This document shows positions 5,012 to 51,884 of a DNA stretch of 64,000 bases, piece after piece. The stretch covers positions 2,347,389 through 2,411,388 of the forward strand of contig NC_015577.1 in the NCBI RefSeq assembly GCF_000214355.1. The letters run 5' to 3'. The DNA is from Leadbettera azotonutricia ZAS-9 (GTDB taxonomy: Bacteria; Spirochaetota; Spirochaetia; Treponematales; Breznakiellaceae). A model generated the notes under the pieces. It had not been told where the DNA came from and ran no database searches. It was given only the letters and a program-made list of their open reading frames with translations. Every line of letters begins with the position of its first letter. Within the stretch, counting starts at the first letter, position 1. The translations under genes and the position numbers were made by a program.

Positions 5012-6474
5012 GAATGACAGAAAGGATTTTCAATTTTGACCTGGACGGAAAAAAGGAATTGGGTTTCGACACGGGCCTGGATGCCCAGGCTTTTGCCCAA
5101 GCCAAAATGGCGCAATTTATCACCCAGAAGGGATGGATTGTTTTTCCCGACAGGCGGATGGAAACCTGGAAAGCTTCCGGAGTATACGAGAAAGAAACCA
5201 TGATCATCTGGGGACCTGCATTTCCGGGGGAAAGTCTCGATGCCCTCGTCAGGGATGGCAACCGCAAGGATGAAGCCCTGGACGCTATACGGCTCTGGAT
5301 AACAGCCAGGGCCATGATAGGGCAGACAGAATTCCTTTACCCCGGCGCCAGCGGCGTTTTCGTCGTAACGGAAACGAGTGCGGATTATCCAAAAGGAACC
5401 TTGCTCTTCCCCCCCGAAAGGCTTGTGAAGCGCTGCATCGAAGCCCAGGGGAACGAAGCAATTGTCGCGGCCCAGCAGTGGGTGCATCCAGATCTTAAAA
5501 ATGATGAGGAAACTGTTTTCAGCGCAGGCGCCATGCTCTATGCGGTCTTCTGCGGGGCGCCTCCTTTTTACCGGGAAAATGATGAAGTGCTTCGTCAGGA
5601 TATACGGGAAGGCGTGTTCATGCGTCCGGGGCTGGCAGCCCCGGGGTTTGACGCAGAATTGGCCGCCCTTATCGCTGACGCCATCAGCCCTATAAAGAAA
5701 AATCCCGATGCAAAGAAACGGCCTTCGCCCGATATGCTGAACGAAGCTTTGGGAAGCCCCGGGTCAAAAAAAGCCTTATCCTGGTTTACTGCGCTTTCGG
5801 AAGAGGAACTGGCTAAAATACGGATTGAACAGGGACAAAATAAAAAAAACAGGGAACTGAAAGTAAAAACCAGGCGTTTTGTGGCGCGGAACACTGCCAT
5901 CCTCATAAGCTGCGCCGCCCTGGCTTTGGTGATCGTTTTTGGCACCAGGGGATATATAAACCACCAGAAAGATCTCCCCAACACCAAGGGCATGGCCCCC
6001 GTCCAGGTTGCGGAAACCTACTATGGCGCTTTTGAAAATTTGGATCATACCCAAATGGAAGGATGCGTCATCAACAAAGCCGGAAAAGGCGACATTGATA
6101 TGGTGATAAATCTTTTTGTCATTACCCGGGTAAGGCAGGCGTACGAAACCTATTCGGAAGCAAATTATGCTGCCCAAAAATGGCTTGACGACGGTTCCCC
6201 TGTTACGGACCGAACCGTCTTTGGCGTTACGGGCCTTAAGCTCACGACCCTTGACAGCGATGAAAGCGACGGCGAAGTCAGTTTCCGTGCAGCCTATACC
6301 CTTTGGGTTCCGGCCAACATGGCCGGGGATAGCGAGCCTCCGAGCTCGGAAGAAATCATGAAACCGGATTATGTCCCGCCCCAGCCAAAGGGATTGGAAT
6401 ATACCGACATACTAAAAATTGCATACCATAACGATTCCTGGCGCATTTCCGAAATTTCGAGAAGCGAAAAATGA
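5008..6474 (+). CDS. Membrane-anchored degenerate protein-kinase-like protein
   Basis: 488 aa with no confident family name. Residues about 65-250 follow the layout of a Ser/Thr kinase C-lobe: an alpha-E-like helix (residues 88-104), FPPERLV (134-140) in the place of the APE region, FSAGAMLYAVFCGAPPF (171-187) matching the alpha-F helix, and RPSPDMLNEAL (238-248) matching the last helix. No glycine loop, catalytic HRD or DFG motif can be found, so it would be a pseudokinase. Residues 295-314 form one membrane segment. The remainder (from about 328, VQVAETYYGAFENLD) resembles an NTF2-like domain and should be extracytoplasmic. Four-base overlaps on both sides link it to hflC and fumarase. The kinase relation is my inference. 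Confidence 0.6.
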   Translation: MRMTERIFNFDLDGKKELGFDTGLDAQAFAQAKMAQFITQKGWIVFPDRRMETWKASGVYEKETMIIWGPAFPGESLDALVRDGNRKDEALDAIRLWITARAMIGQTEFLYPGASGVFVVTETSADYPKGTLLFPPERLVKRCIEAQGNEAIVAAQQWVHPDLKNDEETVFSAGAMLYAVFCGAPPFYRENDEVLRQDIREGVFMRPGLAAPGFDAELAALIADAISPIKKNPDAKKRPSPDMLNEALGSPGSKKALSWFTALSEEELAKIRIEQGQNKKNRELKVKTRRFVARNTAILISCAALALVIVFGTRGYINHQKDLPNTKGMAPVQVAETYYGAFENLDHTQMEGCVINKAGKGDIDMVINLFVITRVRQAYETYSEANYAAQKWLDDGSPVTDRTVFGVTGLKLTTLDSDESDGEVSFRAAYTLWVPANMAGDSEPPSSEEIMKPDYVPPQPKGLEYTDILKIAYHNDSWRISEISRSEK

Positions 6475-47035: not shown

Positions 47036-47053
47036 GCTTTAAGGGTAGCGGAT

Positions 47054-48529
47054 TTAGGGGGTTTGGGCAATATTGTCTTTAATTTTCTCCAGCCCTTCGC
47101 TCTTTTTGATAAGTTCGATGTAGAGCAGAAGTTCGTCGCGGGAGCTGACGCCGAGTTTGCCGTAGATATGGGTGTTGTGGGTTTTTAACGTATTAAGGCT
47201 CATGTGCTTAACTGCAAGTATCTTCTGATTGGAAAGCCCCTGGACATAATAATCGAAAATGATTTTTTCCGTTGGTGTGAGGGTCTTGCAGCGTTTTATA
47301 AATTCTTCAAACATTTGATTTTTCAGCGGCGCTTCACGGATTTGCGGGGGAGCGGCCTTCTCCATGAGCCTTGCATATCGGCGGCTTAAATAAACAGCCA
47401 AGGCTATGCTTACAGCCAGGAGGACTGCAAAGGCGAGAATGATCCTGATATTCCTCCCCAGAATAAGGCTGTCCAGTTCCTGGCGGGGGATGGCAAGGGT
47501 TAGGACAAAGGTTTCATCGTGGAAAGGCGAATTGGTGGGATAGAGACGCAGTTCTTCGTGGACCCCTGCAAGGGGCGTTTGGGAACTTTCATAAAAATTG
47601 AGACCAGCGGTTCCCCTGGTGATGGAGGCTTTTCCGGAACCGGGGTTAAGATTGCCTGAAAAGAGGCCCTCTCCGGGTTGTATGCCGTTATTGGCAAGCT
47701 TCGAGAGTACGCAGACAATGCGATTGTATATGTTTAAATCTGGGGAATTGTTAAGCCTGAAATTCATTGAACTGATTTCAAAACCGCAGACTCCAAAGAT
47801 TTGACCCCCTGCGCCGATTACCGGAATTGAACAGAGTATTATATCTTCATCAAGGTCGGGGATTGCGCCCTGAAAAGTCCAGTAATAAAGACGCGAAAGG
47901 GGAAGATGGGGATTGTCCAGGTATTGATCCAGGGGCTCGCTGAAAAAATCCCTGTCCCGGACATCGAATTCCATATCCCAGCGGGACTGGAGGGCAAGGT
48001 CGTTTTCATGAGCCAGATGAGGGAAACCCCGGAGGTAGAGTTTTACCGTGTCGAGGCTTTTCGGTTCGGTATTTCTCATATAAAGGCCCGCCCTCGAATA
48101 CCGCGCGTTGGGAAGGGATGGATTTACGGTTACATCCAGAACCAAAAAAACCCCGGTACAGGAAGTTCTTTCGAGGGCCAGAAGCAGGCAGTTTAATTCA
48201 TTGGATAAAAGCGCTTCAAGCGCCTGGGGGTTATTGGAAAGCTCCCCAATGGAAAGGTTAAATCCCCTAAGGGAATTTTCAATGCTTCTTGATAATGATT
48301 CTGAAAGGGATACTGTCTGGACACTGGTATCTCCAAACTGTTTTGATACATTTTGCGATATATAAAAAAGCTCTCCCTTTAGCAGACGTTTAGCGTCGCT
48401 TGAACGGAAAGAAAATATTCCTACAAAAAGCAGAATAAGCAGGGATCCTGCAAGCATGGAAGCTGCAGGTATCAATAAAAAGAGAAAGGGACGCCGTTCA
48501 AAGGGGATTTTTTTAATTACCTGGTGCAA
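47054..48529 (-). CDS. Membrane-bound LuxR-type regulator with an extracytoplasmic sensor
   Basis: 491 aa from a TTG with AAGGGA eight bases upstream. Membrane helices lie at about 15-40 and 372-396. The 330 residues between them face outside and look like a Cache-type sensor (FDVRDRDFFSEPLDQYL, IFGVCGFEIS). The C-terminal 65 residues are a LuxR helix-turn-helix (LTPTEKIIFDYYVQGLSNQK). This is a one-protein sensor-regulator tied to the membrane. It overlaps the solute-binding-protein gene by 17 bp, suggesting a shared signal. I assign the Cache type only by layout. Confidence 0.75.
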   Translation of the reverse strand: MHQVIKKIPFERRPFLFLLIPAASMLAGSLLILLFVGIFSFRSSDAKRLLKGELFYISQNVSKQFGDTSVQTVSLSESLSRSIENSLRGFNLSIGELSNNPQALEALLSNELNCLLLALERTSCTGVFLVLDVTVNPSLPNARYSRAGLYMRNTEPKSLDTVKLYLRGFPHLAHENDLALQSRWDMEFDVRDRDFFSEPLDQYLDNPHLPLSRLYYWTFQGAIPDLDEDIILCSIPVIGAGGQIFGVCGFEISSMNFRLNNSPDLNIYNRIVCVLSKLANNGIQPGEGLFSGNLNPGSGKASITRGTAGLNFYESSQTPLAGVHEELRLYPTNSPFHDETFVLTLAIPRQELDSLILGRNIRIILAFAVLLAVSIALAVYLSRRYARLMEKAAPPQIREAPLKNQMFEEFIKRCKTLTPTEKIIFDYYVQGLSNQKILAVKHMSLNTLKTHNTHIYGKLGVSSRDELLLYIELIKKSEGLEKIKDNIAQTP

Positions 48530-49970
48530 AATAATTTCCCTTCAAAATAAAATTTTCAAAAGCCCCTTGTGATATTTTATTATAGGCGTCCTCCTCATTC
48601 ATGGTCTTTATCAGGCCGAGGTATTCCTCACGGGAAGCAGAAGCCGCCTTTTGAATATCTGCTATAAAACGGCGCTGGAGGGAATCAAAGCCTTCAAACA
48701 CCGGGGGTATGTAGTAGCGGTAACTGTTCTCCATTAAACTTACAGCGGCAAACATTTTATCCAGAACGCTGTTTCCCTGACCATAAGCTGCGGTGTCAGT
48801 TCCCATTGCCCTTGCGCTGTAAGCCCCGGTCTGTACAGGCATATAACCTGTGGTGGCGGTAAAGCGGGCGTTCCGTTCAGCATCGGTGAACCACTTGAGA
48901 AAAAACGCAGCGGCATATTCTTTTACAGGCGTAGATTTGATAACGCACATACCTCCGCCTCTCTGCATTGCAACCTTTTCAGCGCCCGAAAAAACAGGAT
49001 AGGGCAATACGGCCCATTGAGCATTTTCTTTGGTATTGTCGGCATAGGTAACTGAATCGGGATAAAAAACAGCACCTGCAGAAGTGGAAGCTGTGCAGAC
49101 TATATCCCCGGTTTTGGCAAGGTAATTTCCATAATTATTAAAGATGGCAATCCGGCCCCTTACTGCGCCTTTATAATAACTTTCCCAAATTCTTCTAAAA
49201 ATTTTTGACTCAAGAGGGGAACCTTCGCTGTTGAGACCTTTGTTTTCACTATCGATAAATGCGGAACCGAGCTGTTCAAAACCTATCATAAAGTAATTAA
49301 ATAAAGGATCGGGATAGAAAAAAGTTTTACCGTCATGGGGAATATCCGGTGTCAGTATATCGGTCCAGGCATAATATTTTTCAGCGGTATCCAATATGCC
49401 TTCTATAGTATCAAGCTGGGAAAGGCTTACCCGGGCGGCTTTGGCAAAGCGGTCAAAGATGACCGTGTTGACGTAAAGAACTTCGGTGGATTTTGCGATA
49501 GGCAGCGCGTAGAGTGTATCGCCGCCCAAAAAACCTTCTTCAAGAAACTCGGGTACAAAGCGTGAAAGCTCGGTCCCGGTAAAATGGGTTTTAAAATCCA
49601 TAAGAAGACCCTGTTCAGCCAGGATAATTGCCACATTGGGATAGATAACCGCCATATCGGGCAGAGACGGGGCGCCGGGATCGCCGGCTGCCGCGCTTAT
49701 GAGTTTCTCGTGAAGAAAGGCCGTGTTGGCAACAGAGCTTACCTGTACGGTGATTCCCTCTTTGGCGCCTGCGCCGCAGTTAAATTCTTCTACCATGGAA
49801 TCCATATTGGTTTTCATCTGCTCCACCATAGTATGCCAAACTGTGAGTGTTACCGGATTTTTGGGGCTGGGCCGATCGGGAGTGGCGCAGGATAAAATCA
49901 GCACAGGCAAAAAAATAATGAATAAGGCAAAAGCGCCTGATAAAGACAGGGACTTTACTTTGGGTTTCAT
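48513..49970 (-). CDS. Extracellular solute-binding lipoprotein (ABC sugar-binding type 1)
   Basis: 485 aa. The lipobox is LILSC (Cys28). The mature part has the family-1 binding-protein fold: TLTVWHTMVEQMKTNMDSMV, LPIAKSTEVLYVN and AAAFFLKWFTDAERNARFT. No permease or ATPase gene is near. It lies between the small LuxR gene (4-bp overlap) and the Cache-LuxR gene (17-bp overlap), so it is more likely a ligand receptor for the regulators than part of an importer. GAAGGGA precedes the ATG. Confidence 0.85.
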   Translation of the reverse strand: MKPKVKSLSLSGAFALFIIFLPVLILSCATPDRPSPKNPVTLTVWHTMVEQMKTNMDSMVEEFNCGAGAKEGITVQVSSVANTAFLHEKLISAAAGDPGAPSLPDMAVIYPNVAIILAEQGLLMDFKTHFTGTELSRFVPEFLEEGFLGGDTLYALPIAKSTEVLYVNTVIFDRFAKAARVSLSQLDTIEGILDTAEKYYAWTDILTPDIPHDGKTFFYPDPLFNYFMIGFEQLGSAFIDSENKGLNSEGSPLESKIFRRIWESYYKGAVRGRIAIFNNYGNYLAKTGDIVCTASTSAGAVFYPDSVTYADNTKENAQWAVLPYPVFSGAEKVAMQRGGGMCVIKSTPVKEYAAAFFLKWFTDAERNARFTATTGYMPVQTGAYSARAMGTDTAAYGQGNSVLDKMFAAVSLMENSYRYYIPPVFEGFDSLQRRFIADIQKAASASREEYLGLIKTMNEEDAYNKISQGAFENFILKGNYFAPGN

Positions 49971-50281
49971 TTTTTCGTCCCTTCTTCTGCAAGATCGCGA
50001 TATTGTATGATGAGCTGTGCCCGGGATTTAACCCCAAGCTTTTTATGGATAGAATTGGTATGGGTATTGATGGTGGGCAGGGTAACCCCCATAAGTTTCG
50101 CAGTCTCCTTCATGGTATGGCCTTTTAAAAGCAGCAAAAGACATTCCTTTTCACGGCCAGTCAAAAGGGCCAGTTTTTGCCTGCGGATCTCCACCTCTTC
50201 CTCCGGGCCCTGATTTTCAGCTCCCCGAGCCCCTGCCTTTTTCCGGCAGGTTCTGCGCCTCAATATGTCGAATATCTTCAC
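49967..50281 (-). CDS. Small LuxR-type DNA-binding protein
   Basis: 104 aa from a GTG with GGAG eight bases upstream. A short, very basic N-terminus (RRRTCRKK) is followed directly by a LuxR helix-turn-helix (LTGREKECLLLLLKGHTMKE, then LMGVTLPTINTHTNSIHKK). It has no receiver and no membrane part, so it may be constitutive or work with the membrane regulators. It is the first gene of the three-gene run with the binding protein and Cache-LuxR. Confidence 0.85.
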   Translation of the reverse strand: MKIFDILRRRTCRKKAGARGAENQGPEEEVEIRRQKLALLTGREKECLLLLLKGHTMKETAKLMGVTLPTINTHTNSIHKKLGVKSRAQLIIQYRDLAEEGTKK

Positions 50282-50407
50282 CGCTGTTTCTCCATTCTCT
50301 AACTCATTGAATTATTTGATTTATATTCCTTTCTTATTTTCCCCCATAAATTCAATAAAAAACAATCATAAATAGTAATGAGATTGGAGAAAAATCAATG
50401 ATTTTGT

Positions 50408-50460
50408 TCATTAGAACTAATGATATTTGGAAATATATATACTTTTCTAAATGTTTTAGA
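50408..50460. promoter_or_regulatory. Two dyads upstream of the LuxR/binding-protein operon
   Basis: TCATTAG-AA-CTAATGA (50408-50423) and TCTAAA-TGT-TTTAGA (50446-50460) are perfect inverted repeats of 7 and 6 bp arms. They lie in the AT-rich 174-bp gap, the second overlapping the stop of the upstream LuxR gene. LuxR helix-turn-helix dimers bind such dyads, so these are candidate operators. The rest of the gap is AT-rich with no clear gene. Confidence 0.4.
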
Positions 50461-51847
50461 GATTTTTAAAAAGCTTCCCCAGCTGCCACCTGGTAGTAAC
50501 CCCTGTCTTGCGGTAAATGGCAGTGCAATGGGTATTAACCGTTGGCTGGGCAATATGGAGATAGGCGCCTATTTGACGCATAGTATAGCCTTCAAGGAGC
50601 ATACGACAGACTTCAATTTCACGTTTTGTCAGCTTATACTGGTTAAAGGCCAAAACCTTATCGCCGTCTATTTCGCTGGATTCCATATCATCCACCCAAT
50701 CATCTTCAAAATACGTACGGGTCAGGATGGGGGAAATAATAAAATAGAAAAAGACCATTACCGCTGAGAGTACCAGAATGAGAAGCGCCGGAGCCCCGCC
50801 TGCGAGAGCGTTAAACCAGCGGCTTATGAGTATACAGATGCCTCCGCCGGCAAAGCCGAACCAGAGGGTAATGCGCAGATGGTTCATATTGTTGTATTTG
50901 CGTCCTATGACCCCGATATTGTAGAACATATTGATCATACCCACAGTTCCCGCAAGTCCTATGAGGAAAGATGCAGCAGGTATGAAGGCAGCGGTATTTC
51001 CGCCCGAATTAAATCCCTGGTCTAAAACGGCAAAGAGAATGCCCAGGAAAAAAGAAGCGAAGCAGATATTCCAGGCCAGGTTGAGACTTTTGCGGATAAA
51101 GGCAAAAATAATGATATAAATTCCGCAGCCCAATAAGCCGCCTGAAAATGCCCAAATATAGGAGTCTTGTCTGTCCAGCATGAATTTGCCAAACCCCAAT
51201 ACTGCCAGGGCAAAGGCAAAATTAATGGTCAGGGAGAAATAGGTGATCTTTTTGGGCCTGGGCGGGGGTACGGTAGATTCTTCCGCGTCAAGGTCGGCTT
51301 TTTTAAAAAACAATACAGGCAGAAATGCAAGAATAAGGAATACAAGGGCGGCTTGCCTTTCTCCAATTATTTGCATAAGGCCAATTTTTCCTGCAAGACC
51401 CAATAAAATAATCAGGATATTGCTGCACAGAACTGCATAAAATTTCTCTGTATTGTTCATAATGTAAACAAAGGGAATAAGTATACTGTCATTTACGAGG
51501 CCCAGAATAAAACCCAAAACAAGAGCCAGGGGTAAAAGCCAATTTGCAGGAACTACATAAATTAAAATGAGGAATATAATAAGCGCTGCAATAGAACCAA
51601 TACGCGCGGTCTTAACAAACCATGTTTTTTTATAAAAGCATAAATAAAGAGCCGCAGAAAAAAGTATGCCCCAATGAACAAAGGCTCTTAAATCGGAATT
51701 AAAAAAACCAATAATGGGCAGATGGGCAGTAACAAAAACCAGGGCCCAGGCATAGTAGAGTATCCACATCAGAACATAGACCAGAACATGGGGACGTATG
51801 TTCTTAATTCGGACTACATTTTTAGGCAATTTTTTAAATACGCTCAA
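50456..51847 (-). CDS. Polytopic membrane LuxR-type regulator
   Basis: 463 aa. About twelve membrane helices fill residues 20-380 in an MFS-like pattern, then a cytoplasmic LuxR helix-turn-helix (LTKREIEVCRMLLEGYTMRQ, then LHIAQPTVNTHCTAIYRKT) ends the protein. Such polytopic LuxR proteins are known in gut bacteria, where the membrane part is thought to sense ligands or transport state. The start is TTG at 51847, with AGGAAAG seven bases upstream, both inside a strong hairpin. It lies 46 bp after gatB and upstream of the small LuxR operon. Confidence 0.8.
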   Translation of the reverse strand: MSVFKKLPKNVVRIKNIRPHVLVYVLMWILYYAWALVFVTAHLPIIGFFNSDLRAFVHWGILFSAALYLCFYKKTWFVKTARIGSIAALIIFLILIYVVPANWLLPLALVLGFILGLVNDSILIPFVYIMNNTEKFYAVLCSNILIILLGLAGKIGLMQIIGERQAALVFLILAFLPVLFFKKADLDAEESTVPPPRPKKITYFSLTINFAFALAVLGFGKFMLDRQDSYIWAFSGGLLGCGIYIIIFAFIRKSLNLAWNICFASFFLGILFAVLDQGFNSGGNTAAFIPAASFLIGLAGTVGMINMFYNIGVIGRKYNNMNHLRITLWFGFAGGGICILISRWFNALAGGAPALLILVLSAVMVFFYFIISPILTRTYFEDDWVDDMESSEIDGDKVLAFNQYKLTKREIEVCRMLLEGYTMRQIGAYLHIAQPTVNTHCTAIYRKTGVTTRWQLGKLFKNL

Positions 51848-51884
51848 CTGCGCACTTTCCTAAAAACTGCGCAGTTGAGCGTAT
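51838..51884 (-). promoter_or_regulatory. 17-bp perfect hairpin over the start of the polytopic LuxR gene
   Basis: ATACGCTCAACTGCGCA (51838-51854) pairs perfectly with its complement at 51868-51884 around a 13-nt loop. In the minus-strand mRNA the loop carries AGGAAAG (ribosome-binding site) and the 3' arm carries the TTG start. It also directly follows the gatB stop, so it could end gatB transcripts, but no T-run follows. It may control translation or bind a regulator as DNA. Confidence 0.6.

Follow-up and report, generated by a model that had tools for sequence, protein, structure and literature searches.

What would a solute-binding protein of the transporter type do at a place where no transporter is encoded? 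The question arises from a 64,000-nucleotide stretch of the genome of the spirochaete Leadbettera azotonutricia ZAS-9, hereafter the window, in which the gene of a solute-binding lipoprotein (SBP) lies among three genes for LuxR-type regulators. Known clients of binding proteins include transporters, chemoreceptors, kinases and c-di-GMP enzymes. In the initial annotation, the lipoprotein was proposed to present a ligand to a membrane-tethered regulator, within a system of four genes.

The cluster and its surroundings

The host genome is a single contig of 3,855,671 bases, where the cluster occupies positions 2,394,445-2,399,235. In window coordinates, the features are as follows.

50456-51847, minus strand: 12-TM-type LuxR protein, 463 aa, with GerE in the Pfam scan
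50282-50455, no strand: intergenic region, presumed promoter of the small LuxR-SBP-sensor operon
49967-50281, minus strand: small LuxR protein, 104 aa, with GerE; GTG start, GGAG upstream
48513-49970, minus strand: SBP_bac_8 lipoprotein (the SBP), 485 aa, Cys28 at the lipobox; first core gene
47054-48529, minus strand: dCache transmembrane LuxR regulator (the sensor), 491 aa; second core gene
47486-48403, minus strand: extracytoplasmic dCache domain of the sensor, residues 43-348 (AlphaFold model)
47123-47284, minus strand: GerE/LuxR DNA-binding domain of the sensor, residues 416-469, recognition helix SLNTLKTHNTHIY (Pfam, alignment)

The four-gene layout is as first described. All genes are on the minus strand, and at the called starts the overlaps are exactly 4 bp (small LuxR/SBP) and 17 bp (SBP/sensor), the second figure hinging on the called start because the sensor starts with TTG. 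Translational coupling of the small LuxR and SBP genes is probable. By Pfam, each of the three regulators has a GerE domain (E 3.8e-9, 1.1e-12 and 2.8e-12) and the lipoprotein matches SBP_bac_8 (E 7.9e-29). The absence of a nearby transporter, also part of the first description, is borne out by a genome-wide permease scan. Among 98 BPD_transp_1 matches, none is located between 2,298,495 and 2,467,852, and the closest matches are some 69 kb and 96 kb away from the cluster. The same scan found no ABC permease gene near either of the two genomic copies of the SBP-sensor pair, the second of which is at 2,900,423-2,903,125. The window lipoprotein has no partner permease and ATPase genes of an ABC importer nearby.

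Two observations concern the edges of the cluster. Between gatB and the 12-TM-type LuxR gene, a perfect 17-bp inverted repeat with a 13-bp loop (51838-51884) spans the predicted TTG start of the latter gene; it is probably the gatB terminator and possibly a translational control element. At the other end, the gap from the sensor stop to murG is only 18 bp (47036-47053), so that the signalling genes may share a transcript with this peptidoglycan gene.

Would the four genes form one module, in which the small LuxR protein partners or competes with the membrane LuxR protein and the 12-TM-type protein acts as an upstream sensor? The overlaps of the small LuxR, SBP and sensor genes, which are probably co-translated, argue for such a module, as does a 12-TM-type LuxR gene near the pair in Diplocloster (locus L063). 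However, the similarity of the latter protein to the window protein reaches only E 1e-4, and L063 is the one exception among 80 loci, which otherwise have no other LuxR gene near the pair. Furthermore, none of 58 related genomes has a full-length relative of the small LuxR protein, and the relatives of the 12-TM-type protein are weak and unlinked. A four-gene module is thus unlikely, and the two proteins were rejected as conserved partners. As judged from these comparisons they are lineage-specific neighbours outside the core, and they may regulate the pair.

The binding protein and the sensor as a conserved pair

When 99 genomes were searched separately with the sensor and with the SBP, the matches coincided in place: 11 of 11 SBP matches (E <1e-20) adjoin a sensor homologue. 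The boundary of the SBP family is sharp: across 394 genomes of the order, 15 SBPs score E 1e-143 or better, and no weaker member was found down to E 1e-45. A scan of 84,980 species genomes, seeded with paired SBPs, gave 237 relatives, the best 80 of which were analysed. In 77 of these 80, the SBP gene is directly followed by a sensor gene in the same orientation, which in most cases overlaps it or is at most 160 bp away; the other three loci run out at contig edges. The hosts belong to Clostridia (Syntrophomonadaceae, Peptococcaceae, Tepidanaerobacter and others), Synergistota, Fusobacteriota and the termite-gut spirochaetes, and the SBP occurs in 18 of 63 genomes of the class of Syntrophomonas. 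The contig of one sensor (G031, L042) lacks an SBP. The pair is thus conserved far beyond the strain, across phyla, so that neither of the two refuting outcomes named in the initial annotation, permease genes in the cluster or a neighbourhood confined to the strain, was observed for it, and the conserved unit consists of two genes, encoding an SBP_bac_8 lipoprotein and a dCache-LuxR membrane protein. It is smaller, and far more widespread, than the cluster initially delimited. Distance matrices of the SBP and of the ectodomain show a mirror correlation of 0.95 over 76 pairs (permutation maximum 0.26), a value that overstates independence because the loci are related.

The sensor carries, according to Pfam, a C-terminal GerE domain only, without receiver and without kinase, as in LuxR/GerE one-component regulators; Pfam gave no match to a Cache domain. 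An AlphaFold model obtained with 64 aligned sensors (pLDDT 89.5) has in order a first transmembrane helix (TM1, 10-36), a long helix followed by two alpha/beta Cache modules (43-348), TM2 (349-392) and a helix-turn-helix (404-476). Foldseek and VIA-align match the ectodomain to the dCache domains of PctA, McpX, Tlp1, TlpQ and sensor kinases with VIA Z values of 15-17, for instance 17.2 to 6d8v and 17.0 to PctA 5t65. A double Cache fold between two TM helices is therefore modelled, and the label "Cache-type", which had been a guess, proves well chosen. The membrane LuxR protein has the look of a one-component regulator that is tethered to the membrane.

The SBP model (pLDDT 92) has a normal SBP fold, and lipobox Cys28 is kept in at least 90% of 66 relatives. 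By profile and fold, the closest proteins are the Thermus UpG dinucleotide-binding SBP entries, followed by maltodextrin-type and UgpB-type proteins. In an alignment read by eye, counterparts of six of the eight mutated ligand residues of the Thermus dinucleotide SBP look conserved, which is only a lead because sugar SBPs may share such positions. The ligand is perhaps a glycoside or a nucleotide-like molecule.

The output domain behind the ectodomain is exchangeable. Among 77 sensors, 70 have a LuxR output, one has LuxR behind an assembly gap, one is a hybrid kinase and five are cut by contig ends. The hybrid histidine kinase, with receiver and Hpt, is the sensor of Treponema sp. Nt197P3bin57. 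Other treponemes retain the pair with a GGDEF or GGDEF-EAL output; the same ectodomain is followed by GGDEF-EAL in G033 and the genomes of family f3, and by GGDEF in G387. The ectodomain tree has this kinase as the sister of a LuxR member (support 100/99), nested in the LuxR tree, within a mixed clade of Treponema, Bacillota, Synergistota and Fusobacteriota. A separate clade is made up of the GGDEF-EAL sequences. By this tree, the kinase form (L037/L101) is one derived case. At L037:2108-14436 (G054), the pair is found amid further hybrid kinases and a Peripla_BP_6 protein, in a dense binding-protein and sensing array.

The SBP and the ectodomain stay paired whatever the output, which is the strongest sequence argument for joint function, short of proving contact. 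Conservation across phyla and output swaps also fits what is predicted for a ligand-presenting partner. We consider it quite probable that the SBP and the dCache-LuxR protein are a two-protein signalling system, in which the SBP would gate the tethered LuxR protein directly, without permease or phosphorylation. The lipid-anchored SBP would capture a solute outside the cytoplasmic membrane and dock on the dCache domain of the sensor rather than on a permease. A conformational change would then run via TM2 to the cytoplasmic LuxR helix-turn-helix, which would bind DNA while membrane-tethered, with no need for phosphorylation. The idea of ligand presentation to a tethered switch is thus strengthened by a transporter-free pair kept across phyla and outputs, its contact and binding steps being predictions; the SBP and the tethered switch remain the likeliest reading, and what has to be redrawn is the boundary of the system, a pair and not four genes.

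Another possibility would be that the SBP serves an ABC transporter encoded elsewhere, that the dCache-LuxR protein senses small molecules alone, and that the two merely share one operon. Orphan SBPs that share permeases are known generally, and direct ligand binding is common among dCache domains. The SBP fold and the closest solved relatives are those of transporter SBPs, and the genome has many permeases elsewhere. Yet no permease was found among the conserved neighbours of this SBP subfamily in the scanned loci. In addition, the sensor is the immediate neighbour in about 90 loci from several phyla, with any output, and the output swap left SBP and ectodomain together. A shared permease is accordingly rather improbable, somewhat more so than the four-gene module.

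A palindromic candidate operator

Upstream regions of 71 SBP genes contain the pattern TCACC-N5-GGTGA in 48 loci, for a shuffled maximum of 5, and the consensus of the promoter palindrome is AATCACCC-N3-GGGTGATT. With sites called at 14 or more matched bases out of 16, 84 loci contain 67 sites, 63 of which are intergenic although intergenic bases represent only about 12%. Fifty-nine of the intergenic sites are beside the SBP gene; the other four precede the operon genes c2, c4 and c17, even where the SBP gene is not adjacent to these. A second palindrome is present in 27 of 67 distinct loci, usually at a distance of 26-27 or 36-38 bp, or about 2.5 and 3.5 helical turns; no tandem copies of the control pattern were found.

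The operator covaries with the type of recognition helix. The palindrome accompanies 44 of 57 loci with helix NT[IV]KTH, as against none of nine with other helices or outputs (Fisher p 1.3e-5, a significance inflated by the relatedness of the loci). Thirteen of the 57 canonical-helix loci have no palindrome within the 400 bp tested. In most relatives, the regulator would bind AATCACCC-N3-GGGTGATT, often in two phased copies, at its own promoter. The same palindrome would be bound at the promoter of the divergent envelope/zinc-ribbon operon.

The genes opposite the SBP gene in Clostridia form a conserved set, which encodes a small membrane protein of the DUF4870-like type (34 loci), a lipoprotein of the DUF6591-like type (30 loci), double zinc-ribbon proteins (11 loci), another lipoprotein (9) and AIM24 (6). 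In 10 loci of a different branch, a BTAD-type regulator is found. In the Treponema genomes G034 and G287, the divergent genes have an outer-membrane or lipid-anchored look; the scanned ones of G034 gave no Pfam match, and the model of the DUF6591-like lipoprotein (c3) gave no match in spirochaete loci, the divergent lipoprotein of G287 included. The predicted regulon is likely an envelope response.

That the palindrome instead belongs to a different regulator, one that acts on the divergent envelope operon and has the SBP-sensor pair as one target among others, is the least probable of the alternatives: a site between divergent genes could be explained from either side, and in Petroclostridium (G399) two of the three exact copies of the core pattern in the genome are at unrelated intergenic places, but the Treponema loci G034 and G048 (canonical helix) and G287 carry the palindrome with different divergent genes, and it is absent with the other helix type, the kinase or the GGDEF output.

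Some further patterns were noticed. After Treponema operators, two direct GGGTGATT half-sites (GGGTGATTTTGGGGTGATT), non-palindromic, are found at L040:2393, L041:3823 and L177:6504, and would perhaps allow extra half-site binding. Genome-wide, near-matches to ATCACCCN3GGGTGAT exceed those to the reversed control (28:2 in the host genome, G000; 44:4 in G038; 26:0 in G033), perhaps owing to codon usage or an unrelated repeat. This excess was left out as evidence because G033, whose sole pair is of the GGDEF-EAL type, has it as well.

How does the window copy fit in this picture? Its recognition helix, SLNTLKTHNTHIY, is of another type than NT[IV]KTH. The canonical operator was found neither in the window, at up to three mismatches, nor upstream of the second host-genome copy or of both G038 copies. 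No shared dyad was found among the loci with the window helix type (window, L063, L064, L073, L079 and L102), nor among those with the helix type of L036, L038 and L039. Because the canonical operator is absent, it is the helix-turn-helix that suggests DNA binding by the window copy, whose site presumably diverged along with the recognition helix. The dyads at 50.4 kb, singled out in the initial annotation, do not stand out: the 174-bp AT-rich gap (50282-50455) contains two dyads with 7-bp arms, a number equalled in 23% of shuffles, and they were rejected as operators.

Comparison with known systems, and other neighbours

ToxR and CadC also have an extracytoplasmic sensing domain joined via a TM helix to a cytoplasmic DNA-binding domain, as in the present sensor; they differ in having an OmpR-type winged helix, an N-terminal DNA-binding domain and no SBP. 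On the side of the binding protein, the pair agrees with SBP-dependent sensors of the NspS-MbaA and XylFII-LytS kind in its gene arrangement, an SBP gene adjoining a membrane sensor gene with no permease. LuxPQ is one of the SBP-activated kinase systems.

In others of these, XylFII-LytS, the SBPs near AgtS/AruS (PMC11113362) and CuaD of Ruminiclostridium (PMC10384115), the SBP gene is likewise beside a membrane-sensor gene and the signal is the ligand-loaded SBP; their output passes through a kinase and a response regulator, whereas the present sensor itself carries the DNA-binding domain. The NspS-MbaA system, known from Vibrio cholerae and Sinorhizobium (PMC8967002, PMC9993111), resembles the present pair in that a transporter-type SBP is encoded with the membrane sensor that it controls, and its GGDEF-EAL output is shared by some treponeme members of the present family. 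Unlike the SBP of the LuxR pair, that of NspS-MbaA is polyamine-binding and of another subfamily, and the output is c-di-GMP, not DNA binding. Finally, the 10-12-TM LuxR regulators DadR, CadR and HcdR of Eggerthella (PMC9734109) are membrane-bound one-component regulators as well, but with a polytopic input and neither ectodomain nor binding protein, whereas two TM helices flank a dCache domain in the core regulator. It is the 463-aa neighbour in the window, with GerE and ten hydrophobic segments on a simple scale, that resembles them in architecture (PMC9734109).

In the open-access literature, which misses most subscription papers, no description was found of an SBP acting with a LuxR or Cache one-component regulator, nor of a direct DNA-binding output with its own phased operator. 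We are inclined to think, with less assurance than for the pair itself, that the family is an undescribed and widespread class of SBP-gated tethered LuxR factors, with phased tandem operators in the promoter of their own genes and in that of an envelope operon, and with outputs (DNA binding, phosphorelay or c-di-GMP) exchanged behind an unchanged SBP and ectodomain. Termite-gut spirochaetes and many clostridia appear to switch a gene regulator by means of a binding protein, without transporter or kinase. If this is true, a large family in which an SBP gates a transcription factor would offer the shortest such route from an outside solute to a gene. The conserved operator permits an immediate test, in the form of a ligand screen with a reporter carrying the 19-bp site, one regulator and one SBP. 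Moreover, a natural set with one input and three outputs is suited to asking how a dCache domain drives differing effectors.

Some loci show additional neighbours of the pair. A second conserved module is beside it at L036:10289-18596 (the second host-genome copy) and L038:11591-15538 (one G038 copy), consisting of a 7TMR-DISM hybrid kinase and a LuxR response regulator, with identities of 67% and 59%, respectively, from one locus to the other. At L063 (Diplocloster modestus), positions 5086-5902, two c4-family zinc-ribbon proteins precede the SBP on the same strand, inside the signalling operon and not divergent from it. Two adjacent genes, at L038:17606-19341 and L041:3-1606, are homologous between pair loci of different genomes; their products, of 179/149 aa and 399/386 aa, with a weak Omp85 hint, are possible targets of the regulator.
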